Under the pieces are notes generated by a model. It had not been told where the DNA came from. It worked only from the letters and a program-made list of their open reading frames with translations, and did not search any database. Below, piece by piece: positions 33,823 to 46,302 of a DNA stretch of 64,000 nt. How positions within the stretch are numbered: position 1 is the stretch's first letter; every line of letters starts with the position of its first letter. The stretch is from Neomelitea salexigens DSM 19753 (GTDB lineage: Bacteria > Pseudomonadota > Gammaproteobacteria > Pseudomonadales > Spongiibacteraceae), in contig NZ_AULP01000013.1 of assembly GCF_000422345.1 (NCBI RefSeq), positions 1 through 64,000 on the forward strand, in the 5' to 3' direction. A program made the translations under genes and the position numbers.

Positions 33823-34197
33823 TTAGCTCAGTCGCTCAAATATCTGCAGGCCCCAGCAGGACAAACACAGCAAAAGGCTGATCATTACGGCGGCTGAGCC
33901 GATATCTTTGGCCTGCCCGGAGAGCGGATGGCGATCGGTGCCAATACGGTCTATTGCTGCTTCGATCGCCGAGTTTATAAGCTCGACGATCAATACCAGC
34001 AAAACCGGGATGATGAGTAGGCTGCGCTCGATCGCATTTTCCCCCAGCCAAAACGCTGCGGGTAGCAGAATGGCGGCCAGCATGCACTCTTGTCTGAAGG
34101 CCTCTTCATGGCGCCACGCGGCGGTGAGCCCCTTACGAGAATAGAGAGTGGCGTCAATCAGTCGCCAGAGGCCGTGTCGGCCGGGTTTATTCATCAT
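33823..34197 (-). CDS. dgkA: Diacylglycerol kinase
   Basis: A small inner-membrane kinase that recycles diacylglycerol released by periplasmic glycan modification. It has 124 residues (122 in E. coli) and three hydrophobic segments. The catalytic signature VELINSAIEAAIDRIG and the downstream LSGQAKDIGSAAV are intact. Two adjacent ATGs (34197 and 34194) are possible starts. It is divergent from the lipid A acyltransferase gene. Confidence 0.95.
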   Translation of the reverse strand: MMNKPGRHGLWRLIDATLYSRKGLTAAWRHEEAFRQECMLAAILLPAAFWLGENAIERSLLIIPVLLVLIVELINSAIEAAIDRIGTDRHPLSGQAKDIGSAAVMISLLLCLSCWGLQIFERLS

Positions 34198-34345
34198 GGT
34201 AATTTCACAGCTGTTAGCCAGGTCTGTGTCTCAATCGGTGTACAATACTCAGCGCTATGCTTATGCAGGGCTGTTATATAAAGGCGTAGGCGCGCGAGCT
34301 CCGGTAGAACCGCCTGCCGAGAAGACACAGTGTAATAGCAGGACG

Positions 34346-35236
34346 ATGACAATTCAGAGACAACTCTTACATCCGCGCTACTGGCCAACCTGGCTGGGTG
34401 TGGCATTTATGTTCGTGCTGGCAAAGTTGCCTCAGCGATTGAACTACCTTGTCGGCAAGCTGCTGGGCAGTTTGTTTTACTATTTTGCCAGTGGTCGACG
34501 CCATGTTGCCGCGCGAAATCTGGCGCTGTGTTTTCCCGAACTTACCGAGACGGAACGTCGTCGCCTGCTTAAAAAAACCATGCAGGATCAGGGTATCGGT
34601 TTGCTCGAAATGCTGCGAACGTGGTTTACCCCAATTGACAAGCTGGGCGTTGAGTTGGAATTCGTCGGTGAAGAGCACCTCGACGGCGACGGCCAGGGTG
34701 TCATCGTATTGGGCGCGCATTTCACCTTTATCGACTTGAGTGCAGCCTTAATTGCGCGCAGTAAGCGTTCTGACTCGTTCTATCGCAAGCAAAAAAACCC
34801 GGTGGTCGAGTGGATTTTGAGTCGAGCGCGCGGGCGTTATGGCGAGCCGATTCACCGGCGTGATTTTAAGCGCGCATTAAAATCCCTTCGCAAGGGCAAC
34901 CGGCTGTTTTACCTGCCGGATCAAGACTACGGCCGCAAATCGGCGGCATTTGTGACGTTTTTCAATAACCTTGCCGCCACTACCGTGGCGACGTCTACCC
35001 TGGCGAAGGGGGGGCGCGCGAAAGTGGTATATATCGACCAACAGCGCTTAGAGAAGGGGCGCCGAATTCGCTTGGAGGCTATTCCGCTGGAAAATATTCC
35101 CAGTGGCGATCCCGATGCCGATGCGCGGGCGGTGAACGCCGTGATTGAAGAGAATATTCGCCGAGCGCCGGAGCAGTATATGTGGGTCCATCGCCGTTTC
35201 AAAACGCGCCCCGAAGGCGCTGCGAAGGTGTATTGA
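34346..35236 (+). CDS. lpxL: Lipid A biosynthesis acyltransferase (LpxL type)
   Basis: A membrane-anchored enzyme adding a secondary acyl chain to Kdo2-lipid A. The start at 34346 (MTIQRQLLHPRYWPTWLG) gives 296 residues (306 in E. coli LpxL); the frame extends upstream without homology. An N-terminal hydrophobic anchor is followed by the catalytic HX4D in LGAHFTFIDLS, then PDQDYGRKSAAFVTFF, and the terminal WVHRRFKTRPEG matches LpxL. It opens the surface-glycan locus and is 6 bp before the ELM1-family gene. Acyl specificity cannot be predicted. Confidence 0.92.
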   Translation: MTIQRQLLHPRYWPTWLGVAFMFVLAKLPQRLNYLVGKLLGSLFYYFASGRRHVAARNLALCFPELTETERRRLLKKTMQDQGIGLLEMLRTWFTPIDKLGVELEFVGEEHLDGDGQGVIVLGAHFTFIDLSAALIARSKRSDSFYRKQKNPVVEWILSRARGRYGEPIHRRDFKRALKSLRKGNRLFYLPDQDYGRKSAAFVTFFNNLAATTVATSTLAKGGRAKVVYIDQQRLEKGRRIRLEAIPLENIPSGDPDADARAVNAVIEENIRRAPEQYMWVHRRFKTRPEGAAKVY

Positions 35237-35242
35237 GGCCCT

Positions 35243-36166
35243 ATGGCGACGACTTTGCGATTGTGGTTTATCACTGACGGGCGCCCCGGCCACCTCAACC
35301 AGTTGCGTGGGCTTGCCGAGCGGCTCGAGGCAAAAGTGCCGTGCCAAATTCACTGGCTGGATATTTCTCAGCACGGGTTTCGCAAGGCTGGCCGCAGCGG
35401 GCTGTGCGAGCAATTCGCTGCCAGTTCGCCCCCTGATTGGGTCGTGGCCGCCGGCAGTCGTTGTCACCTGCCCCTGCTGTGGACCGCGAAGGTGAGTGGC
35501 GCTCGCTCTTTAGTGTTAATGAAGCCCAGTCTGCCGCGATGCTTGTTTGATGCCGCGATTATTCCCGAGCATGATGCGCCGCCGGTGTCACCGAAAATAC
35601 TGGTTACCAGAGGCGTGCTCAATGTCATGCAGCCGACCCTTGAAAACAGGGATAAGCGGCGTGGCTTGATTGTGTTGGGCGGGGTAAACAAACACTTCGC
35701 TTGGGATAACGACGCAGTATTAGAGCAGGTGCTGGCGATTGCCAACGCGCGCTCAGACTTACATTGGACCGTATCAGACTCGCCGCGTACACCGCCCGGC
35801 CTACTAGAAGCATTGGCGTTAGAGGCTGTGGCCAACATAGATACCCTGCCCTTCGGCGATTGCCCGCCCGGGTGGCTGAGAGAGCAGTTAGCCTCAGTTG
35901 CCGAGGCCTGGGTCAGTCGCGACAGCGTGTCGATGGTCTACGAGAGTATTACCTCGGCGGTGCCGACCGGCTTGTTAGCGCTTCCACCATTGCGAGATTC
36001 ACGGGTAACGCGAAGTATGGCGAGCGTGCTGGCGGCAGGCCTGGCCAGGGGGTACGAGTCTTGGCCCGCTGGTGAGCCATTGCCACCCCCTGCTGAGCAG
36101 GTTTGGGAAGCAGATCGTGCCGCCGATTGGCTGCTCAACACCTTAGAAGGAAAAAGACATGCTTGA
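35243..36166 (+). CDS. ELM1/GtrOC1-family protein
   Basis: This 307-residue protein has the hallmarks of the bacterial mitochondrial-fission-ELM1 family (PF06258): WFITDGRPGHLNQLRGLAERL at the N-terminus, PDWVVAAGSRCHLPLLW, VLGGVNKHFAWD and AWVSRDSVSMVYESITSAVP. The fold resembles a GT-B glycosyltransferase, and bacterial members often sit in LPS-core loci, as here between lpxL and a GT4 gene. The biochemical role is unproven. It overlaps the next gene by 8 bp. Confidence 0.8.
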   Translation: MATTLRLWFITDGRPGHLNQLRGLAERLEAKVPCQIHWLDISQHGFRKAGRSGLCEQFAASSPPDWVVAAGSRCHLPLLWTAKVSGARSLVLMKPSLPRCLFDAAIIPEHDAPPVSPKILVTRGVLNVMQPTLENRDKRRGLIVLGGVNKHFAWDNDAVLEQVLAIANARSDLHWTVSDSPRTPPGLLEALALEAVANIDTLPFGDCPPGWLREQLASVAEAWVSRDSVSMVYESITSAVPTGLLALPPLRDSRVTRSMASVLAAGLARGYESWPAGEPLPPPAEQVWEADRAADWLLNTLEGKRHA

Positions 36167-37307
36167 TGCTGTTAACGAGACTGAGGCGAGCCCTCGCGTG
36201 TTAAAGGTCGTGCAGTTGCTGCCCGCGCTGAATTCCGGCGGCGTTGAGCGTGGTACCGTCGAATTTGCGCGAGAGCTCGTTCGTCTGGGCCATCAATCAG
36301 TAGTGATTTCTCACGGTGGCCGCATGGTTGAGCAGCTAGAGGCCGAAGGTAGTCAGCATATTGCCATGCCCATTCATCGCAAGTCCCTGAGCTCGCTGTG
36401 GCAGGTTCGCCCCCTGCGGCGATTGCTGGAAACACTGCAGGCGGATGTGATCCATGTACGCTCGCGTGTGCCGGCCTGGATAGCCTGGTTGGCGTGGCGA
36501 AAGATGGACCCGGCTAGCCGCCCCCGCTTAGTGAGCACGTTTCACGGTATGTATTCGGTAAACGCTTACAGTGCCATTATGGCAAAGGCGGAGCATTGCA
36601 TTGCCATCTCACATTGCGTTAAAGGCTACATGGTTGATAATTACCAGATTCCCGAAAGCAAGATTACGCTGATTCCGCGGGGCTTGGATGCCGAGGCCTT
36701 CGTTCGTCAGGATGCCGACAGCCAGTGGTTGGAGGCGTTGTTTTCGGAGTATCCGCAGCTCAGTGGTAAGCCAATTATTTTAATGCCAGGCCGGCTGTCG
36801 CGGTGGAAGGGACAAGAGGCCTTCCTGCAAATGATGGCCCGCTTAGTGAGTTTGCGTCCGGATATCCACGGGGTGGTGGTGGGAGATGCCGAGCCCGGCA
36901 AGCAGCACTATTTGGAAGAACTGCTTGCCATGCGTGAGTCGCTGGGCCTTACCGAGGCGGTCACCTTTGTTGGTCACCGCAGTGATATTGCGAATTTCTA
37001 TCGCTTGGCTGCTGTCACGTGTCATCTTTCTAACAAAGAAGAACCCTTCGGTCGCACGGTGCCAGAGTCCCTCGCCTGCGGTACGCCGGTGGTAGCCTAT
37101 GACCGCGGTGGCGCAAGTGAGTCACTGAATGCCGGCTTTCGTCAGGGCCTCGTCCCCGCCGACGATGTGGTGGCATTTGCGGCACGTGTTGCCGATTTGT
37201 TGGAGGCTGACAATCAGATTAGCCTGCCGCCTGAATACTATTTGGATCACCAAGTGGCCAGTACCCTGAATGTGTACGAGCAATTACTTGGCAATTCTGC
37301 CCACTAA
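36159..37307 (+). CDS. GT4-family glycosyltransferase
   Basis: A 382-residue GT-B enzyme. The N-terminal acceptor domain starts LKVVQLLPALNSGGVERGTV. The donor domain starts near residue 200 with IILMPGRLSRWKGQEAFLQM, and the EX7E motif region reads EPFGRTVPESLACGTPVVAY. It is probably a cytoplasmic or membrane-peripheral LPS-core sugar transferase. The donor sugar is unknown. It overlaps the ELM1 gene and is followed by a 100-bp gap with its own promoter. Confidence 0.88.
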   Translation: MLDAVNETEASPRVLKVVQLLPALNSGGVERGTVEFARELVRLGHQSVVISHGGRMVEQLEAEGSQHIAMPIHRKSLSSLWQVRPLRRLLETLQADVIHVRSRVPAWIAWLAWRKMDPASRPRLVSTFHGMYSVNAYSAIMAKAEHCIAISHCVKGYMVDNYQIPESKITLIPRGLDAEAFVRQDADSQWLEALFSEYPQLSGKPIILMPGRLSRWKGQEAFLQMMARLVSLRPDIHGVVVGDAEPGKQHYLEELLAMRESLGLTEAVTFVGHRSDIANFYRLAAVTCHLSNKEEPFGRTVPESLACGTPVVAYDRGGASESLNAGFRQGLVPADDVVAFAARVADLLEADNQISLPPEYYLDHQVASTLNVYEQLLGNSAH

Positions 37308-37342: not shown

Positions 37343-37407
37343 CGGCCGCTCCAGGGCGGCACTCCCTGGCAGCAATGCCGCGCAACAATGACAAGAACGA
37401 GATAACT

Positions 37408-38448
37408 ATGAGAGTACTGCACATCGCCTATCAACAGCTGCGCCGCTACGGCCAGACTCGGGTGAGTTGGGCGCAGAAACTCAGCTTTGGTCTGATTAAG
37501 AACGACCACTACCTGCAAACGTTTAGCGACCGAGATATCGCTGCCTTTGAGGCGCCCCTGGGCATTCGCGATTTGGGGGTGGGCAAGGCCAACAAGCGCT
37601 TGCTGGAGATGGTCGATGCGATGGAGCCCGATCTTGTCATTGCCGGTCATTGCGACATGATCAGTAACGACACTCTGCGAGAGGTGAAAAAACTCGCTCC
37701 GAATTGCTTTATTGCCCACTGCAATAATGACCCGCTGTTTGTGCCCAGCAATGTTGAGCGTATCGCTTCGCGCGCCTCGGTTAGCGATGCCGTTTTCGTC
37801 TCAACGGGTCGGCGCGAGCTCAAACAATTTGAAGGCATTGGTGCGCGGCTTTATCACATGCCTAACCCCGTAGAAGCTTCCGTTGAGGTGTTGGATAACT
37901 CGCGGAAAACTGATCTGCCCATCGATTTGTTGTTCTGTAGTAATGCCACCAAATTTACCCAGCGCCTGGAAATGGTCGGCCGTATAAAAGAGGCGGTAAA
38001 AGACCAAATGAATTTCAAAACCTATGGCAGTTTTGGCGAGGCGCCGGTGTGGGGGCGCGACTACGATCGCGCCTTAGCCGAAACAAAAATGGGGCTAAAC
38101 CTGAACCGCCAAGAGGGCGACTATTGGTATTCGTCCGCGCGAATGGCGCAGTTGGCGGGCAATGGCATTTTGCAGTTCACCCACAGTGGCCCGCGCTTCG
38201 ACGAGCTTCTTCCCGAAGAGTCCGCTGTTTATTTTAATGATGAAGATGATCTGCTGGCGAAAATTCGCGAGTTTCATTTTGACGATGCTAAACGGCAGCA
38301 CTGGGCATCACGGGCGCGGCAGTTCTACCACCAGGAAATGAATTCACGGCTCTATGCTCAATATATCGTTGAAGCCAGTATGGGAATCCCCTTCAGCCAT
38401 GACTATGTGTGGGCGCGGGATATCCACCTCGACGGATCGATGAAATGA
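37408..38448 (+). CDS. CgeB-like glycosyltransferase
   Basis: A 346-residue protein starting MRVLHIAYQQLRRYGQTRVS at the ATG 37408. The C-terminal half has the layout of the group-1-like family seen in CgeB/spore-maturation proteins (PF13524): MGLNLNRQEGDYWYSSARMA then QLAGNGILQFTHSGPRFDEL and a FNDEDDLLAKI segment. Glycan-locus context supports sugar transfer. Donor and acceptor are unknown. Its stop overlaps the next start (ATGA). Confidence 0.72.
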   Translation: MRVLHIAYQQLRRYGQTRVSWAQKLSFGLIKNDHYLQTFSDRDIAAFEAPLGIRDLGVGKANKRLLEMVDAMEPDLVIAGHCDMISNDTLREVKKLAPNCFIAHCNNDPLFVPSNVERIASRASVSDAVFVSTGRRELKQFEGIGARLYHMPNPVEASVEVLDNSRKTDLPIDLLFCSNATKFTQRLEMVGRIKEAVKDQMNFKTYGSFGEAPVWGRDYDRALAETKMGLNLNRQEGDYWYSSARMAQLAGNGILQFTHSGPRFDELLPEESAVYFNDEDDLLAKIREFHFDDAKRQHWASRARQFYHQEMNSRLYAQYIVEASMGIPFSHDYVWARDIHLDGSMK

Positions 38449-39191
38449 CAATTGCGCTTAGCTCGCAGAAACCTTTTGCACAGGGCGGGAATCGACTGTG
38501 CTTTATCGACCCCGCTGATGCCGATCGCTGTATCAAAGTAAGGCGCCCCGACTTCACGCTCGAGGATTGTCGTCGAAAAAAGGGTTTTCCCAAGAACCTC
38601 AAGCCACTGTCTAGTTTTGATGACAGTTTGGAAGAATTTCACGTTATGCAGGGCTTTGAGCGCCACTATCCGGATAGTATTTTCGACCACGTTAGTCGCT
38701 GCTTTGGCTTTGTCGACACCGATATGGGGCGGGGCCTTAGCTCGGAACTCATTCGCGACAGTGATGGGCGCATTTCCATCACCCTGAAACAATATGTCTG
38801 GGAGCGTGGTTATACGCCAGACTGCCAGGCCGCGGTTGACGTGCTCTGCAAGCATTGGCTCGCGCATTGCGTGCCGTCGCGGGATATTCTTGTTCACAAT
38901 GTTGTCGTGCAGCGCGACGTTAGCGCGGCCGGCGAGAATATTCGCCGGCTGGTTGTGATTGACGGCCTCGGTAGCTCCAACGTGATTCCGCTGTGGTGGC
39001 AGCCAAGAGCGCTGCAGCAGAAAAAGACGCAGCGGAAAATCGATAACTTCCACCAGAGAATAGACACTCTGATTCAAACCCGAAGTCGAGATAGCTTCCC
39101 TGGCACCCATGGCTTGCTGTTTCACGATGGGCTTAGCCAGAACGAGGCTGTGCCCTCGTCGACAAACATGAAGGACCCTGACGCATCATGA
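38445..39191 (+). CDS. YrbL-family kinase-like protein
   Basis: A 248-residue protein of the PhoP-regulated YrbL family (PF10707). It carries kinase-fold landmarks: GGNRLCF then Lys31 in CIKVRR, a catalytic-loop-like SRDILVHNVVVQ (Asp147, Asn152), and VIDGLG (Asp173) in the DFG position. Embedded between glycosyltransferases with 4-bp overlaps on both sides, it could phosphorylate a core sugar, as WaaP-type kinases do. That is inference. The start is the ATG at 38445. Confidence 0.75.
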   Translation: MTIALSSQKPFAQGGNRLCFIDPADADRCIKVRRPDFTLEDCRRKKGFPKNLKPLSSFDDSLEEFHVMQGFERHYPDSIFDHVSRCFGFVDTDMGRGLSSELIRDSDGRISITLKQYVWERGYTPDCQAAVDVLCKHWLAHCVPSRDILVHNVVVQRDVSAAGENIRRLVVIDGLGSSNVIPLWWQPRALQQKKTQRKIDNFHQRIDTLIQTRSRDSFPGTHGLLFHDGLSQNEAVPSSTNMKDPDAS

Positions 39192-40231
39192 GTGGATCCC
39201 TGCGCATCGCCCAAGTCCTAGCGGGCGCCGAGCACGGCGGTGCCGAAAACTTTTTTGTACGCTTGAGTGCCGCACTGCAGGCATCGGGCAGTATTCACGA
39301 GCGCGCTTTTATTCGTCGCCATGCTCACCGCCTGGACGCCCTGCGTAGCCAGGGAGTGGAAGCAGAGGGCTTTCGCTTTGGCGGTAAATTCGATTTTTAC
39401 GACGCCTGGGTGTATCGCCGTCGTCTGCGTGCTTTCAAGCCAGACGTGGTCATGACCTGGATGGGGCGCGCCAGTGACGCAACGCCAAAGGGTGATTACG
39501 TACTGGTGAACCGGCTCGGCCATTATTACAAACTGAAGTATTACCAGCAGGCTGACTACTGGGTGGGGATCAGCAAAGGAATTTGCCAGCACCTGATCGA
39601 GGGGGGAATGCCCGAGGAGCGTGTGGTTCACATTCCCAATTTCGCCGATGAAACCCCGGTCGAGCCTCTGCCGCGAGACAGCTTTGACACGCCTGCTGAT
39701 GTTCCACTGTTACTCGCTGCAGGGCGTCTCCACGTAAACAAGGGCTTTGATACCCTGCTGCGCGCATTGGTCAATGTGCCCGACGCAGTCTTGTGGCTGG
39801 CTGGCAGCGGCCCGGAAGAGCAGGCCTTAAAGTCGCTGTGCAGTGAACTGGGGCTGGATAAGCGTGTTCGCTTTTTGGGCTGGCGGAATGATGTTACTGC
39901 GCTTATGCGCAGCGTCGATGCCTTTATTTGCCCCTCGCGACATGAAGGTCTGGGCTCAATCGTGATGGAGTCTTTTGCCCATCGCTGCCCAATTATTGCC
40001 ACCCGCTCTCAGGGCCCCGGCGAGGTAATTGAACATGACTACTCGGGCTTGCTGACGGATATTGACGATGTCGGCCAGCTTAGTGAAGCGATGAACCTTG
40101 CGCTGACAGATGCAGCGCTTCGCGAGAGGCTGGTAGAAAATGCGACGCAGGTTTATGCCACAACATACAGCCGCCAGGTCATCGTGGATGCCTACCTCGA
40201 TTTTTACCGCCGCATTGCTGAGCAGCGCTAA
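39188..40231 (+). CDS. GT4-family glycosyltransferase
   Basis: A 347-residue GT-B enzyme. The N-domain begins LRIAQVLAGAEHGGAENFFV. The donor domain has LLAAGRLHVNKGFDTLLRAL, the typical LAGSGPEEQALKSL, and the EX7E region SRHEGLGSIVMESFAHRCPI. It is the second GT4 in the locus and differs clearly from the one at 36159. It overlaps the kinase-like gene by 4 bp. Confidence 0.88.
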   Translation: MSGSLRIAQVLAGAEHGGAENFFVRLSAALQASGSIHERAFIRRHAHRLDALRSQGVEAEGFRFGGKFDFYDAWVYRRRLRAFKPDVVMTWMGRASDATPKGDYVLVNRLGHYYKLKYYQQADYWVGISKGICQHLIEGGMPEERVVHIPNFADETPVEPLPRDSFDTPADVPLLLAAGRLHVNKGFDTLLRALVNVPDAVLWLAGSGPEEQALKSLCSELGLDKRVRFLGWRNDVTALMRSVDAFICPSRHEGLGSIVMESFAHRCPIIATRSQGPGEVIEHDYSGLLTDIDDVGQLSEAMNLALTDAALRERLVENATQVYATTYSRQVIVDAYLDFYRRIAEQR

Positions 40232-40242
40232 CAGGCTTGCAG

Positions 40243-41178
40243 ATGATGACTGACACCAGCGTAGTGCGAATTAATATTGCCATCTGCAGCTGCCAGCGGC
40301 CAAAGCTGCTGGCGAAGGCGTTGGCCAGTATTGCGGCGATGGCTTCTCCCGAGGGGACAGAGGTTATCGTCAGCGTTATTGATAACGACCCTCAGCAGTC
40401 TGCAAAAACGGTATGTCGCGATTGGCAAACCAAACTGGGTGTTGCGCTGCATTATGAGCACGAGCCTCGGCGGGGTATCCCGCTTGCTCGCAATCGAGCT
40501 ATAGATGTTGCCCATCAGCTCGGTGCCCACTATTTGGTATTTATCGACGATGACGAATGGGTGGAGCCCGATTGGCTATGTGAGCTTTACCGCTATGCGC
40601 AGTCGCTCGGTGGCAAAGCCGTTGTGCACGGCGCGGTAGTGCCCGAGCTACCGCAAGGGGCGCCCCAATATATGGGTGAGATCTTTTTTGATAAAGGACG
40701 CCCAACGGGTACAGCGTTGGGTAGCTGCGCCACAAACAATGTGCTGATACCGATTTATGTAACTCAAGAGCTAGGCCTGCGGTTTGACGAGAGCCGCCCG
40801 CTGGCAGGCGGCACCGATACCTTGTTTTTTTGTGCAGCGGTAGAGCGTGGCGTGGAAATTTTTGAATGCGCAGAGGCGCGTGTTCACGAAGAAATCCCTA
40901 CATCAAGGCTGAGCAGTCGTTGGTTAGCGAAACGAAAATATCGCGCGGGTATCACCTTGTCTCGGCGAAAACGCGAAGCCGGCCGTTCGGCGGTGGGTTT
41001 GTTGCTGTCGGCGGCTTTCCAAGTCGTGCTAAATGGCCTGCTGGCATTGCTGTCCGCTGTATTGTTTCAGCGCGTGGCGTACTACAAAGCGCTGATGAAG
41101 ATGTCGCGCAATGCAGGGGTGTTGAGTGGGCTGATGGGGGCAACCACCGACAGCTACCAAAAAATTGAAGGGGCATAG
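40243..41178 (+). CDS. GT2-family glycosyltransferase
   Basis: A 311-residue GT-A enzyme. [20 protein letters not shown] opens the fold, [12 protein letters not shown] binds the nucleotide, and the DXD-type metal motif is [11 protein letters not shown] hydrophobic stretch near residues 245-275 suggests membrane association. The ATG at 40243 is preferred over the in-frame TTG two codons earlier. The second ATG at 40246 is equally possible. It precedes rmlB by 20 bp. Confidence 0.87.
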
Positions 41179-41198: not shown

Positions 41199-42275
41199 AT
41201 GAAAATAATAGTCACCGGCGGCGCTGGTTTTATTGGTTCCGCTGTTGTGAGGCACCTGCTAGCAAACACTGATCACAGCGTCGTCAATGTCGATAAGCTA
41301 ACTTACGCGGGAAATCTAGAATCACTGCCCGGTGCAGAACAAAATCCGCGTTACCAGTTTGAAAAACTCGATATTTGTGATGGCCAGGCGATGGCGCGGG
41401 TGCTTCGTGAACATCAGCCTGACGCGGTAATGCACTTGGCGGCGGAGAGCCATGTCGACCGTTCAATAGATGGCCCTGCAGCGTTTATCGAAACCAACAT
41501 CGTTGGTACATACCAGCTGCTCGAGGCCGTGCGCGGCTATTGGTCTGGCCTAGACGAAGAACGCAAGTCGGCGTTCCGTTTCCATCACATCTCTACTGAC
41601 GAGGTTTACGGCGATCTCGATGGGCCAGAAGAGTTGTTTACAGAACAGACGCCCTATGCCCCTAGCTCGCCCTATTCAGCGAGTAAGGCGAGCTCTGATC
41701 ACTTGGTGCGCGCGTGGGGGCGCACATACGGCCTGCCCGTTATGCTGACGAATTGCTCCAATAACTACGGCCCTTATCACTTCCCAGAGAAATTGATCCC
41801 GCTGGTGATTCTTAACGTGCTTGAGGGAAAGGCGCTACCGATATACGGCAAGGGCGATCAAGTTCGGGACTGGTTGTATGTTGAGGATCACGCCCGGGCA
41901 CTGGTGACGGTGCTCACAAAAGGAGCGGTTGGCCAGACTTACAACATCGGTGGCCACAATGAAAAAACAAACCTTGAGGTGGTGGAGCGTATTTGTGATT
42001 TGCTTGATGCAAAGTGCCCGCAACACCCCCCAGGTATCGCGAGTTATCGCCAGTTGATTTGTTTTGTTGCCGACCGTCCTGGTCATGATAAGCGCTACGC
42101 CATCGATGCAGGAAAAATCGAGCGCGAGTTGGGCTGGGTGCCGGTAGAGAGTTTTGAAAGTGGCCTGAACAAGACTATAGCTTGGTACTTGGAAAATACG
42201 CAGTGGTGCCAGCGTGTTCAGGACGGTAGCTATCAGAGGCAGCGCCTAGGCGTTGGAGACGGAGACGTTTCATGA
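41199..42275 (+). CDS. rmlB: dTDP-glucose 4,6-dehydratase
   Basis: Makes dTDP-4-keto-6-deoxyglucose from dTDP-glucose. It has 358 residues. The NAD-binding motif is [12 protein letters not shown], the catalytic region [11 protein letters not shown], and the active-site YxxxK is [12 protein letters not shown]. It overlaps rmlA by 4 bp. No rmlC or rmlD follows, so rhamnose is not the product; the wecE downstream diverts the intermediate to an amino sugar. Confidence 0.96.
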
Positions 42276-43141
42276 AGGGTATTGTATTAGCCGGGGGCAG
42301 CGGCACCCGATTGCACCCGATTACCAAAGGGGTGTCTAAGCAGCTGTTGCCAGTCTATGACAAGCCGATGATTTATTATCCGCTATCGGTGTTAATGCTG
42401 GCGGGAATTCGTGACATCTTGATCATCACCACCCCTGAGGATCAATCATCATTTCAGCGCTTGTTGGGCGATGGCAGTGATTTTGGCATTCACCTGAGCT
42501 ATGCAGTACAGGCGAAACCCGAGGGCTTGGCGCAGGCGTTTATTATTGGCGAGCAATTTATCGGCAATGACAGCGTATGCTTAGTGCTCGGGGATAATAT
42601 TTTCTATGGCCAAGGGTTTCGGCCAATGCTTGAGTCCGCGGCTGCGCGAGGCAAAGGCGCAACCGTATTTGGCTATCAAGTTAAAGACCCTCAGCGTTTT
42701 GGTGTTGTCGAGTTTGATGAGCAGCGACGGGCGTTGTCGATAGAAGAAAAGCCGCAAAAGCCGAAGAGTCACTTTGCGGTTACCGGCTTGTATTTTTACG
42801 ACAATGATGTGGTGGATATTGCCAAGCAGATAGAACCTTCCGAACGCGGTGAACTGGAAATTACCTGCATCAACAATGCTTACCTTGAGCGTGGTGATCT
42901 TCAAGTCGAGTTATTGGGGCGAGGCTTTGCCTGGCTAGACACCGGTACTCATGACAGCCTGTTGGCGGCGGCGCACTTCGTTGAAACCATTGAGTCGCGG
43001 CAGGGCTACAAAATCGCCTGCTTAGAAGAAATTGCGTATTTTCGCGGCTGGCTGAACAGTCAGGATATTGAACGCTTGGGGCAGTCTCTAGGTAAAAGTG
43101 GATATGGTGACTACCTGCTGTCGCTGCTGGAGCATGAATGA
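42272..43141 (+). CDS. rmlA: Glucose-1-phosphate thymidylyltransferase
   Basis: Forms dTDP-glucose from dTTP and glucose-1-phosphate. It has 289 residues. The signature [20 protein letters not shown] and the metal-binding [11 protein letters not shown] are intact, as is [13 protein letters not shown]. It is the first enzyme of the dTDP-sugar branch and overlaps both neighbours by 4 bp. Confidence 0.96.
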
Positions 43142-44202
43142 ACACGGCTAGTGGCGCAGTGCGCATCGTTCACTGTATGAATGCTCAGAAGTTTACCGAG
43201 CCTTTCATCGATTTCGTTGAGCAGCATTTCGATAGCAGTGAGCACCGATTTATAATTCGGGAGGACGATAAGTTCGCCGTCAAAACGCGTGAAAATGTTG
43301 TCCTAGTGCCTAAATCGATAGGCCGCATTGCCTTGCTTAAACTCTATTACACTGAGTTCAAGTCTGCCGAGAAGATATTTCTACACGGTTTGTTTGCCAA
43401 AGACCTCGTTAAAATACTGGCACTGCAATATTGGGTGCTCAAGAAGTGCTATTGGATTATGTGGGGGGCTGACCTCTATCATTTTATTTTCCGCAAGCGC
43501 AGCTTACGTGCAAATATTTTTGAGCGCGTACGGGCGTTTGTTATTCGTCGCATCGGCCACCTCGTTAGCTATATTGATGGCGATATTGCATTGGCCAGGG
43601 AGTGGTATGGCGCTTCAGGGCAGGCGCATCGTTGCTTCATGTATTCAAGTAATTTGTATAAGCCCCTACCTGAAGTCAGCGCTGGAGAAAGCTCCACACA
43701 GACTGTGATATTGGTGGGTAATTCCGCTGACCCGCGCAATGAGCATATGGAGATCCTCGAGCGCATTGCGCCTTTTGCTGGGGAAAATATTCGTGTGGTT
43801 GCGCCGCTGTCCTATGGTCGTAAGCGCTATGCCGATGCGGTAATTGCTGAAGGGCAGAGGATATTCGGCGATAAATTCGAGGCGCTCACGGGCTTCATGC
43901 CCCTCAATGACTATGTTCGTTTGCTGGGTGAGGTGGATATCGCGGTGTTTAATCACCGTCGCCAACAGGCTATGGGCAATAAAATCAGTTTGTTGGGCTT
44001 GGGTAAAAAGGTGTACATGCGCAGCGACATAACACCTTGGGCATTGTTCGCGGAAGAGGGCATCAAAGTCTTTGATATAGAAGGTTTCGACCTCACCCAC
44101 ATTGCGCCCGAAGTCGCGCAGCGCAATAAGCAGCGGGTTGCGAGCGTGTTCTCCGAGGATAACTTGGTCTCGCAATACCGGGAGATGTTTGAGCCGTCAT
44201 GA
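43138..44202 (+). CDS. WecF-like GT56 4-amino-4,6-dideoxygalactose transferase
   Basis: A 354-residue protein resembling WecF/RffT (PF07429, GT56), which adds Fuc4NAc to the enterobacterial common antigen intermediate. Shared features include [35 protein letters not shown] and [19 protein letters not shown]. The neighbouring dTDP-Fuc4N genes fit a Fuc4N-derived donor. Because a formyltransferase follows instead of WecD, the donor may be the N-formyl form. The acceptor is unknown: no wecA, wecB, wecC, wecG or wzx is in the window. Confidence 0.82.
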
Positions 44203-45092
44203 AAGTAGGGTTTCACATTATTGGCGCTAAGGGGCTGCAGTCTCTGAAAGCGTTTTTCGAGACATTTGGCGGCGAAGCGGTCGGCTATGTTATGGCGGCT
44301 CGCGATGCCGCGATTGAGTACGATGCGTTTGATGATATCGAAGATTATTGCAAAGCCTCGTCGCTGACGTTTTGTGCGCGTGGCGGGGCATTGGATGGTG
44401 TTGACGAGCAGTGTGACGCAATTTTTGCTATCGGCTGGCGTTGGCTGATCGATGAGACGGACAAGTTGGTCGTCTTTCACGACTCGCCGCTGCCCAGATA
44501 TCGCGGCTTTGCGCCCCTGGTCAATATGCTTATTGATGGCTGTGATGAAATTGCCGTTACGGCGTTATTGGCGGCTGATCAGTATGATCGCGGCGATATC
44601 GTTGCGCAGGCCACTATGCCTATTACTTATCCACTTAAAATTGCCGACGCCATTGATCAGGCAGCTTCGTTGTACGCCAAACTGGTGGTCGAGGTGGGCG
44701 GTGCCATTCTCACGTCAGGCAGCCTGCAAGGGGAGGCGCAGGATGAGGCCAATGCCAGCTACAGTTTGTGGCGTGATGATGCAGACTACCGGGTAGATTT
44801 TTCCCGTTCTGCTATTGAGGTGCGGCGGTTTATCGATGCGGTGGGTTATCCCTATAAAGGGGCCTCGGCATTGGTGGGAGGGCTTTCTGTACGCCTGCTA
44901 GACGCTGTCGCCTTGGCTGATGTCAACGTTGAAAACCGCCAGGCCCACTTGGGGAAAGTCATCTTTATGGAAGGGAATTGCCCAGTGATAGTGTGTGGCA
45001 GTGGCTTGCTAAAAATTACGGAGTTGCGCGATGAGCAGGGGGCGTCCTTGCTGGGCAAATTGAAATTTCGTACGCGCTTTGAGGGCTGTTGA
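44199..45092 (+). CDS. Sugar N-formyltransferase (Fmt-like)
   Basis: A 297-residue protein with the formyltransferase fold shared by methionyl-tRNA and sugar-nucleotide formyltransferases. The core VVFHDSPLPRYRGFAPLVNM contains the catalytic-type His94, and DQYDRGDIVAQ contains Asp130. The Asn two residues before His in classical Fmt is Val92 here. A C-terminal Fmt-C-like domain covers about residues 205-297. Between the GT56 gene and wecE it most likely N-formylates dTDP-4-amino-4,6-dideoxygalactose using N10-formyl-THF. It overlaps both neighbours. Confidence 0.83.
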   Translation: MKVGFHIIGAKGLQSLKAFFETFGGEAVGYVMAARDAAIEYDAFDDIEDYCKASSLTFCARGGALDGVDEQCDAIFAIGWRWLIDETDKLVVFHDSPLPRYRGFAPLVNMLIDGCDEIAVTALLAADQYDRGDIVAQATMPITYPLKIADAIDQAASLYAKLVVEVGGAILTSGSLQGEAQDEANASYSLWRDDADYRVDFSRSAIEVRRFIDAVGYPYKGASALVGGLSVRLLDAVALADVNVENRQAHLGKVIFMEGNCPVIVCGSGLLKITELRDEQGASLLGKLKFRTRFEGC

Positions 45093-46231
45093 TGAAAGAT
45101 TTTCTTAGCTTTAACCGCCCGCCGCTCACAGGCAATGAGCAGCAGTATGTGATGCAGGCAATGGCCAGCGACAAAATATCGGGCGATGGCCAGTTTGGTA
45201 AGCGGTGCCAGCAATGGTTTGAAGAGCGCTTGGCCGTGCCAAAGACGCTGCTTACGCCGTCTTGTACGCATGCTCTGGAAATGGCGGCGCTGCTAATCGA
45301 TATCCAGCCAGGTGATGAAGTTATTATGCCTAGCTACACGTTCGTTAGTACCGCGAATGCTTTTGCCCTGCGTGGCGCTAGAATCGTCTTTGTCGATGTG
45401 CGCCCAGATACCATGAATATTGACGAGACGCTGATCGAAGCCGCGATTACGGAAAAAACGCGGGCGATTGTCCCCGTCCATTATGCCGGTGTTGCCTGTG
45501 AGATGGATGCCATTATGGATCTGGCGGCGCGATATCAATTGTATGTGGTTGAGGACGCGGCTCAAGCCGTGCAGTCGCGCTTCTGCGGCCAAGCTGTCGG
45601 TACCCACGGGCATCTATCTGCTTTCAGTTTCCACGAAACCAAGAATGTGACGAGCGGTGGCGAGGGTGGCCTACTTATCATTAATGACGAGAAATTTGCG
45701 CAACGCGCGGAAATTATTCGAGAAAAGGGGACTAACCGCAGTCAATTTTTTCGTGGAGAGGTCGATAAGTATTCCTGGGTAGATGTCGGCAGCAGTTATT
45801 TGCCCAGTGAGCTGCAGGCTGCCTACCTGTGGGGGCAATTAGAGCGCGTTGAGCAGATCATCGAACATCGCTTGCAAAGTTGGCAGCGATATTACGAACG
45901 GCTAGCGCCGCTGGCCCAGAAGGGGGTGGTCAGTTTGGCGACGATTCCTTCTCATTGTGATCACAACGCCCATATGTTTTATCTTAAGGTGGCTGACTTG
46001 GCGCAGCGCGGGCAACTGCTGTCACATTTAAAGGCTCAAGGCATCCTCGCTGTTTTCCACTATGTGCCGCTGCACTCTGCCGATGCCGCCAGTCAATACA
46101 GCCGTTTTCATGGCGCTGATCGCTATACTACCAGCGAGAGTGAGCGCCTATTGCGCCTGCCGCTGTACTACGGAATGTCGGTAGCGGATATTGACCGGGT
46201 CTGCCAAGCGGTGAATGACTTCTTCGCATAG
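45092..46231 (+). CDS. wecE: dTDP-4-amino-4,6-dideoxygalactose transaminase
   Basis: A PLP enzyme converting dTDP-4-keto-6-deoxyglucose to dTDP-Fuc4N. It has 379 residues and is extremely similar to E. coli WecE/RffA, for example PGDEVIMPSYTFVSTANAFA and IREKGTNRSQFFRG. The PLP lysine is Lys184 in SFHETKN. The ATG at 45092 overlaps the formyltransferase stop by one base; an in-frame TTG precedes it. It is the last gene of the overlapping dTDP-sugar module. Confidence 0.95.
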   Translation: MKDFLSFNRPPLTGNEQQYVMQAMASDKISGDGQFGKRCQQWFEERLAVPKTLLTPSCTHALEMAALLIDIQPGDEVIMPSYTFVSTANAFALRGARIVFVDVRPDTMNIDETLIEAAITEKTRAIVPVHYAGVACEMDAIMDLAARYQLYVVEDAAQAVQSRFCGQAVGTHGHLSAFSFHETKNVTSGGEGGLLIINDEKFAQRAEIIREKGTNRSQFFRGEVDKYSWVDVGSSYLPSELQAAYLWGQLERVEQIIEHRLQSWQRYYERLAPLAQKGVVSLATIPSHCDHNAHMFYLKVADLAQRGQLLSHLKAQGILAVFHYVPLHSADAASQYSRFHGADRYTTSESERLLRLPLYYGMSVADIDRVCQAVNDFFA

Positions 46232-46302
46232 CTGCGCCCGCTGTCGCCGCTGGCTGCGACATTTCCCCACAATGATCGGAGGAAGCCCTCGGTCAATCTC
46301 TG

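Follow-up and report, generated by a model that had tools for sequence, protein, structure and literature searches.

What sugar is made by a row of five overlapping genes in Neomelitea salexigens DSM 19753 (Gammaproteobacteria, Pseudomonadales, Spongiibacteraceae), which group is placed on its amine, and to what is it finally attached? The genes, lying in a window of 64,000 nucleotides (positions 1 to 64,000 of contig NZ_AULP01000013.1, the whole stretch analysed here), encode in this order RmlB, RmlA, a glycosyltransferase of family GT56, an Fmt-like member of the formyltransferase family (hereafter FT) and WecE (Table 1). The answer proposed here, which is probably right as a whole, is that the five genes, as an exchangeable cassette of the lipopolysaccharide (LPS) core, serve to build and transfer a single sugar, N-formylated 4-amino-4,6-dideoxygalactose (Fuc4N-formyl, or Fuc4NFo), the best reading being that of a variant of the known Fuc4N pathway. 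RmlA and RmlB would convert glucose-1-phosphate into dTDP-4-keto-6-deoxyglucose, which WecE would aminate to dTDP-4-amino-4,6-dideoxygalactose (dTDP-Fuc4N); FT, in the place held in related cassettes by a presumed N-acetyltransferase, would use N10-formyl-tetrahydrofolate to formylate the 4-amino group of this nucleotide sugar, yielding dTDP-Fuc4N-formyl, and the GT56 enzyme would move Fuc4N-formyl onto the growing core oligosaccharide made by the genes just upstream. The sequences provide family-level gene identities, a conserved linkage, differing enzymes in the acyl slot of related loci and an exchange of the cassette within the genus.

In the original prediction the five genes were said to overlap by 1-4 bp, and both coordinates and overlaps are right: rmlB/rmlA, rmlA/GT56 and GT56/FT overlap by 4 bp each, and FT/wecE by 1 bp (TGATG) from the likelier start of wecE, ATG 45092, or by 4 bp from the alternative TTG 45089. 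The Fuc4N pathway with a GT56 transferase and an Fmt-family protein in the N-acyl slot, which had also been predicted, is borne out by the RmlA, RmlB and WecE models, by PF07429 and by PF00551 and PF02911. Both wecE (at E 1e-10) and GT56 (at E 0.001) are present in a single copy in the window genome. Since other genomes contain this set of genes as well, the cassette is not a chance assembly. WecE exceeds the cut-offs of TIGR02379 (645.9 bits against 434.85) and of NF008687 (633.7 against 375). It is very improbable that the aminotransferase makes instead dTDP-4-amino-4,6-dideoxyglucose (dTDP-Qui4N), the product then being the already known Qui4N-formyl; the name of TIGR02379 refers to the glucose form, and Qui4N carrying a formyl group is given as a polysaccharide component in PMC3210612, but NF008687, which is exceeded by a wide margin, describes the galacto form, the gene is associated with GT56, the Fuc4N transferase family, and the solved structures that match best, 6blg and 4piw, do so at E 2e-165 or below (the next one at 3e-51) and are WecE-type, 4PIW being named WecE in PMC7725333.

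Membership of FT in the formyltransferase family is indicated by PF00551 (35.2 bits, cut-off 26.1, over residues 89-145 only) and by PF02911 (38.4 bits, cut-off 21.1, residues 194-283). As a methionyl-tRNA formyltransferase it scores 83 bits with TIGR00460, below the cut-off of 201.5, and a second, distinct Fmt-type match is found in the genome at G000:C2:502077 (G and L denote genomes and loci). In the formyltransferases of the Formyl_trans_N family, catalytic roles are ascribed to an Asn, a His and an Asp (Asn-x-His ... Asp). The usual members examined indeed read N-x-H, followed by A, G or another residue and then by S/A-x-LP, whereas the motif of the FT clade is [V/I]-x-H-D-[S/A]-x-LP (V92-F93-H94-D95 in the window), with V at position 92 in 19 and I in four of the 23 aligned members. 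These members had been selected with a pattern requiring HD, on which the viral scan was also partly seeded, and H94, D95 and D130 are invariant in all 23; in the loop S-x-LP-x-x-RG, S96 and R102 are kept in 22/23 and L98, P99 and G103 in 23/23. Among the 16 cellular FT homologues obtained by homology searches HD occurs in 15, the remaining one (G433, 28% identity) being then left out.

When 42 distinct motifs are compared, with positions counted from the His, 15 have Asn at -2 and neither Asn nor Asp at +1, while 26 lack the -2 Asn and carry at +1 either Asp (22) or Asn (4); the single exception, L035 in G433, has neither. The anticorrelation thus holds in 41/42 motifs, a count behind which stand few independent clades; a stricter census of 41 motifs, which demanded Arg-Gly, had appeared perfect, the exception being revealed by the looser one. 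Taken with the small number of clades and with patterns that partly chose the members, this suggests a polar group that moved within the active site, and the D or N after the His in 26 of the 27 motifs devoid of the usual Asn looks like compensation rather than decay. Another formyltransferase-like group (L013, L014, L015 and L019) reads G-L-H-N-S-LLP, in which the Asn follows the His rather than preceding it. The ratio of nonsynonymous to synonymous substitutions (dN/dS) between the window genes and those of G192 could not be used, no usable dS being obtained. The solved sugar N-formyltransferases (ArnA, WlaRD, VioF, the TDP-3-aminoquinovose and GDP-4-amino-4,6-dideoxymannose N-formyltransferases and Rv3404c) share with FT the Formyl_trans_N family, an active-site His and Asp and an amino-sugar setting; ArnA and the canonical homologues examined have, however, an Asn two residues before the His, where the FT clade has Val or Ile and an Asp after the His. 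None of the solved structures scores as a member of the clade, the best profile match being ArnA (79.7 bits).

A scan of genome contigs for FT relatives gave seven loci. Some match to FT at E 0.001 is present in 175 of the 194 genomes searched in the order, but one with at least 43% identity and an E value of 1e-72 or less in only four, window included. The motif was read in 16 of the weaker matches, of which 12 have the usual N-x-H and four G-x-H-N. Among 349 genomes of the phylum six matches were found at E 1e-30, one of them (G433) without the clade motif, and FT is present in two of 18 genomes of the genus. Once G433 had been dropped from the 16 cellular homologues, 15 loci were kept (window, L002-L008 and L040-L046), in 11 of which (window, L002, L003, L005-L008, L040-L043) a wecE of at least 50% identity adjoins FT. 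GT56 genes next to Fmt-like genes, which it had been proposed to seek in other genomes, are thereby found in eight of the 15, all with wecE and belonging to Gammaproteobacteria and Bacteroidota (L005, L006 and L008); according to PMC7725333, the N-acetylated sugar, Fuc4NAc, is found only in Gammaproteobacteria. In G382, which belongs to another order, the order rmlB-rmlA-GT56-FT-wecE is that of the window. Clade members were also seen on viral contigs: L054 (4995-5864) close to capsid-type genes, L052 (2591-3487) near a tail-fibre-like gene, and L055 (4986-5864) followed by homologues of wecE (43%) and of rmlA and rmlB (41-42%). Phages may carry this sugar chemistry; when viral sequences were scanned with WecE, no relative could be confirmed.

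What holds the place of FT in related loci is best seen among the 13 GT56 loci of the order. Four of them carry FT; in four others (G020, G019, G979, G941) a hexapeptide-repeat protein of 191-194 residues lies between GT56 and wecE; two (G990, G936) have a similar hexapeptide protein with an aminotransferase only 27-30% identical, and three (G837, G1005, G884) have neither FT nor a hexapeptide protein, G884 carrying wecE and, not far from it, a small GNAT-like protein that falls under every cut-off. The hexapeptide protein of G020, the only one scanned, exceeds the cut-off of PF00132, its best NCBIfam match being NeuD/PglB/VioB (55.5 bits against 160.8), and those of G019, G979 and G941 are 57-65% identical to it. 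In the window genome hexapeptide matches are found only elsewhere, as partial ones of 30-31% identity. The comparison is closest in L078 (G941, another family), where homologues of the core-type genes of the window (GT4 64%, glycosyltransferase GT1_2 73%, GT4 64%, GT2 48%, YrbL 53%) occur with GT56 (41%), a hexapeptide protein in the slot that FT takes in the window, and WecE (69%); the first three core-type homologues (GT4, GT1_2, GT4) lie on the opposite strand, and this gene content places another acyl-type enzyme in the position of FT in a related, rearranged locus. The whole suggests an exchangeable N-acyl slot, whose product in the window would be dTDP-Fuc4N-formyl. There is a precedent in PMC5981137, where an N-acetyltransferase was able to take the place of an N-formyltransferase acting on a different 4-amino sugar.

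The nearest well-known system is the Fuc4NAc branch of the enterobacterial common antigen (ECA) of E. coli K-12 (RffG, RffH, WecE, WecD and WecF; PMC12212991), which has in common with the window RmlA and RmlB, WecE and a GT56 transferase, as well as an acyl-type gene, there wecD, beside wecE. The enzyme itself differs, WecD being a GNAT acyltransferase where the window has an Fmt-like protein, and so do the absence of a WecA match in the window genome, the distance of its GT56 from the ECA WecF model and its LPS-core-like cluster. The cassettes with a hexapeptide protein share with the window the same families, with GT56 and wecE flanking the acyl-type gene, and one of them lies among homologues of its core-type genes; they differ by the hexapeptide-repeat protein in the place of FT. 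The replacement of WecD by a formyltransferase, as originally formulated, stands in part. A wecD homologue was sought elsewhere in the window genome and none exceeds the cut-off (best 23.2 bits against 195.1 for TIGR02382, with which E. coli K-12 WecD scores 323.7 as a control), and E. coli WecD used as a query finds no relative among the 174 open reading frames (ORFs) of 12 loci; the counterpart of FT in the related GT56 cassettes is, however, a hexapeptide-repeat transferase and not a GNAT protein.

The description of the GT56 protein as WecF-like has likewise to be narrowed. It belongs to the PF07429 family and approaches its nearest model, NF002756 (PRK02797.1-5), with 446.9 bits, just under the cut-off of 457, but it reaches only 98.7 bits with the ECA WecF model NF052570, whose cut-off is 525, and therefore is WecF-like only at the level of the family; its identity to E. 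coli K-12 WecF is 22% over 333 columns. The family is rare, being found in five of 321 genomes of the class (E 1e-10) and in 13 of 390 genomes of the order (E 1e-8). No claim is made that GT56 co-evolved with the acyl enzyme: one alignment column discriminates the GT56 proteins linked to FT (n=5) from those linked to the hexapeptide protein (n=4), and among the 126 ways of splitting the labels six, counting the real one, are equally good. Two changes between FT and hexapeptide protein are needed in the trees of both GT56 (20 rows) and WecE (22 rows), but independent swaps are not claimed either, because 11/17 and 9/19 inner branches, respectively, are open and a single gammaproteobacterial FT clade is not rejected. 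In L079 (7856-9611, G1005), rmlB-rmlA-GT56 is followed by a protein of 232 residues, reductase-like by eye (matching neither Pfam at 1e-5 nor NCBIfam at 0.01), with no wecE in the 17 kb examined, an arrangement that suggests a GT56 working with a neutral dTDP-6-deoxyhexose. In L049 (6195-9233, G600), a GT56-type stretch forms residues 681-1010 of a protein of 1012 residues.

Several results weigh against formyl transfer and against the pathway built upon it. The usual Asn is replaced in 23/23 clade members; the FT of the window is far under the cut-off of every NCBIfam formyltransferase model matched and gives no match at E 0.01 with NF005755, the model of the dTDP-Qui4N formyltransferase (that of G382 reaches 24.1 bits, cut-off 238), so that neither of the two clade members scanned reaches an NCBIfam cut-off, and no assayed member of the clade was found. 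In four of the 15 cellular loci (L004, the stretch of which stops 0.3 kb beyond FT, and L044, L045 and L046) FT lacks an adjacent wecE; none of the neighbours scanned is a sugar gene in L044 (G492; a peptidase, a cation efflux protein and an AcrB-type transporter) or in L045 (G479; GMP synthase and catalase), and the clade is therefore not tied to Fuc4N alone. In the locus of G837 neither GT56 nor wecE adjoins an acyltransferase, which makes a free-amine sugar possible, and the acetyl role of the hexapeptide protein is itself presumed, since that of G020 reaches no curated NCBIfam cut-off. Finally, FT-linked and hexapeptide-linked GT56 proteins are not clearly separated, and a single gammaproteobacterial FT clade is neither shown nor rejected by the approximately unbiased (AU) test (p 0.20 and 0.24). 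A rival reading is that FT keeps the family fold without transferring formyl, either working with a different acyl or one-carbon donor or having no activity at all, the sugar then being Fuc4N with some other N-acyl group or with a free amine; it draws on the lost Asn, the low scores and the G837 locus, and is nevertheless unlikely, given that H94 and D130 are invariant and the S-x-LP-x-x-RG loop nearly so, that the D or N after the His is what compensation rather than decay would leave, that FT is linked to wecE in two phyla and that an acyl-type enzyme holds its slot in other loci. Formylation by an Fmt-family protein thus continues to be preferred, but because the clade lacks the usual Asn, formyl transfer itself and the use of a formylated donor by GT56 are kept here as predictions.

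If they are correct, dTDP-4-formamido-4,6-dideoxy-D-galactose would be a new donor, the lost Asn of the clade would have been replaced by the Asp after the His, the LPS antigen cassette would be a travelling one with an interchangeable acyl slot, and different groups at C4 would be tolerated by GT56 enzymes; this fuller proposal is tentative, and held with slightly less than even confidence. No report of Fuc4NFo was found in the open-access literature searched, and since subscription journals and carbohydrate databases lay outside that search an earlier one is possible. Both the sugar nucleotide and the glycan residue would be new to that literature, GT56 would acquire a donor other than Fuc4NAc, and a formyltransferase clade would be defined by an altered and directly testable active site. 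The core-type loci of two families of one order, with an Fmt-type and a hexapeptide-type acyl enzyme respectively, offer a natural comparison, and such paired loci make the acyl-group specificity of GT56 testable.

As to the acceptor, the setting was predicted to be LPS-core-like rather than that of ECA, and this agrees with the LpxL-like, ELM1-like and YrbL-like genes and the several transferases next to the cassette (Table 1), the LpxL-like lipid A acyltransferase tying the cluster to LPS, and with the result for WecA. The claim that wecA, wecB, wecC, wecG, wzx and wzy are absent holds for WecA, with no match to TIGR02380 at E 1e-5 in the window genome (10 of 14 control genomes match, one over the cut-off), and, as far as the 21 window ORFs scanned with Pfam (21768-46231, the rest of the window not being scanned) are concerned, for Wzx and Wzy, no family of which was seen; for wecB, wecC and wecG no genome-wide search was made. 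A role in ECA is unlikely, because no WecD exceeds its cut-off and WecA has no match. That the sugar is as described but is added to an undecaprenyl-linked O-antigen unit is also rather unlikely, although some loci speak for it. In G382, which has FT, the cassette adjoins wecA, a Wzz-type gene and wzx; in G019, which has the hexapeptide protein, it lies with genes related to that wecA and wzx (48% and 47%, respectively) and with a weak Wzz match of 32 residues; and Wzy_C-domain proteins are encoded at other loci of the window genome, one beside its own rmlB and rmlA. Against it stand the neighbours of the cassette, the scans for WecA, Wzx and Wzy, and the core-type gene GT1_2, present in 18/18 genomes of the genus searched. 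The LPS core is therefore retained as the best guess for the acceptor.

Table 1. Genes of the cassette, core-type genes upstream of it and the segment exchanged relative to G063.
Feature	Coordinates	Strand	Basis or remark
rmlB, dTDP-glucose 4,6-dehydratase	41199..42275	+	TIGR01181 503 bits, cut-off 365
rmlA, glucose-1-phosphate thymidylyltransferase	42272..43141	+	TIGR01207 507 bits, cut-off 361
GT56 glycosyltransferase, predicted Fuc4N-acyl transferase	43138..44202	+	PF07429 98.6 bits, cut-off 25
FT, Fmt-like, predicted dTDP-Fuc4N N-formyltransferase, uncharacterised clade	44199..45092	+	PF00551 and PF02911
wecE, dTDP-4-keto-6-deoxyglucose aminotransferase	45092..46231	+	TIGR02379 and NF008687, over cut-off
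LpxL-like lipid A acyltransferase	34148..35236	+	PF03279 223 bits
ELM1-like protein	35243..36166	+	PF06258 185 bits
GT4 transferase	36159..37307	+	PF13439, PF00534
Glycosyltransferase GT1_2 (Glyco_trans_1_2)	37375..38448	+	PF13524
YrbL-like protein, possible sugar kinase (function a guess)	38409..39191	+	PF10707 106.6 bits
GT4 transferase, LPS-core-like cluster	39188..40231	+	PF00534; homologues in L040 (85%) and L078 (64%)
GT2 transferase	40237..41178	+	PF00535; first gene in the stretch without DNA match in G063
Exchange segment	40071..46257	.	no alignable DNA in the G063 stretches examined except diverged rmlB, rmlA

The comparison with G063, of the same genus, indicates that the segment has been swapped as a cassette at what appears, from the alignments, to be a site of antigen exchange, and about 40.07-46.26 kb would then be an antigenic cassette that terminates the core-type cluster and can be exchanged. 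G063 matches the window closely on both flanks and has rmlB, rmlA and rmlC in between. In bins of 250 bases the identity is 93-99% from 33.25 to 37.5 kb (with the exception of one bin of 79% and one of 88%), 63-73% to 39.25 kb and 92-93% to 39.75 kb, and falls to 84% and 72% before the match stops at 40071; the diverged patch at 37500-39250, lying in an otherwise matching flank, marks the latter as a recombination mosaic. Beyond that point only rmlB and rmlA align (67-69% DNA identity) until the match resumes at 46257, 26 bp past wecE, with bins of 94-99% to 50 kb and 93.9% for the whole downstream match to 59.4 kb. In the 16 other loci that were compared, some in stretches that end early, the LpxL-like, ELM1-like, GT4, GT1_2 and YrbL-like genes are common to all, neither GT56 nor FT occurs in the stretches examined, and the downstream end varies, a homologue of rmlB being found within them in 13/16 and of rmlA in 7/16; the few neighbours tested by Pfam include rmlC in L106, L111 and L114 and rmlD in L114. 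The five 1-kb bins at 41-46 kb have a GC content of 0.49-0.54, the other bins between 28 and 54 kb having 0.51-0.61, which weakly favours transfer.

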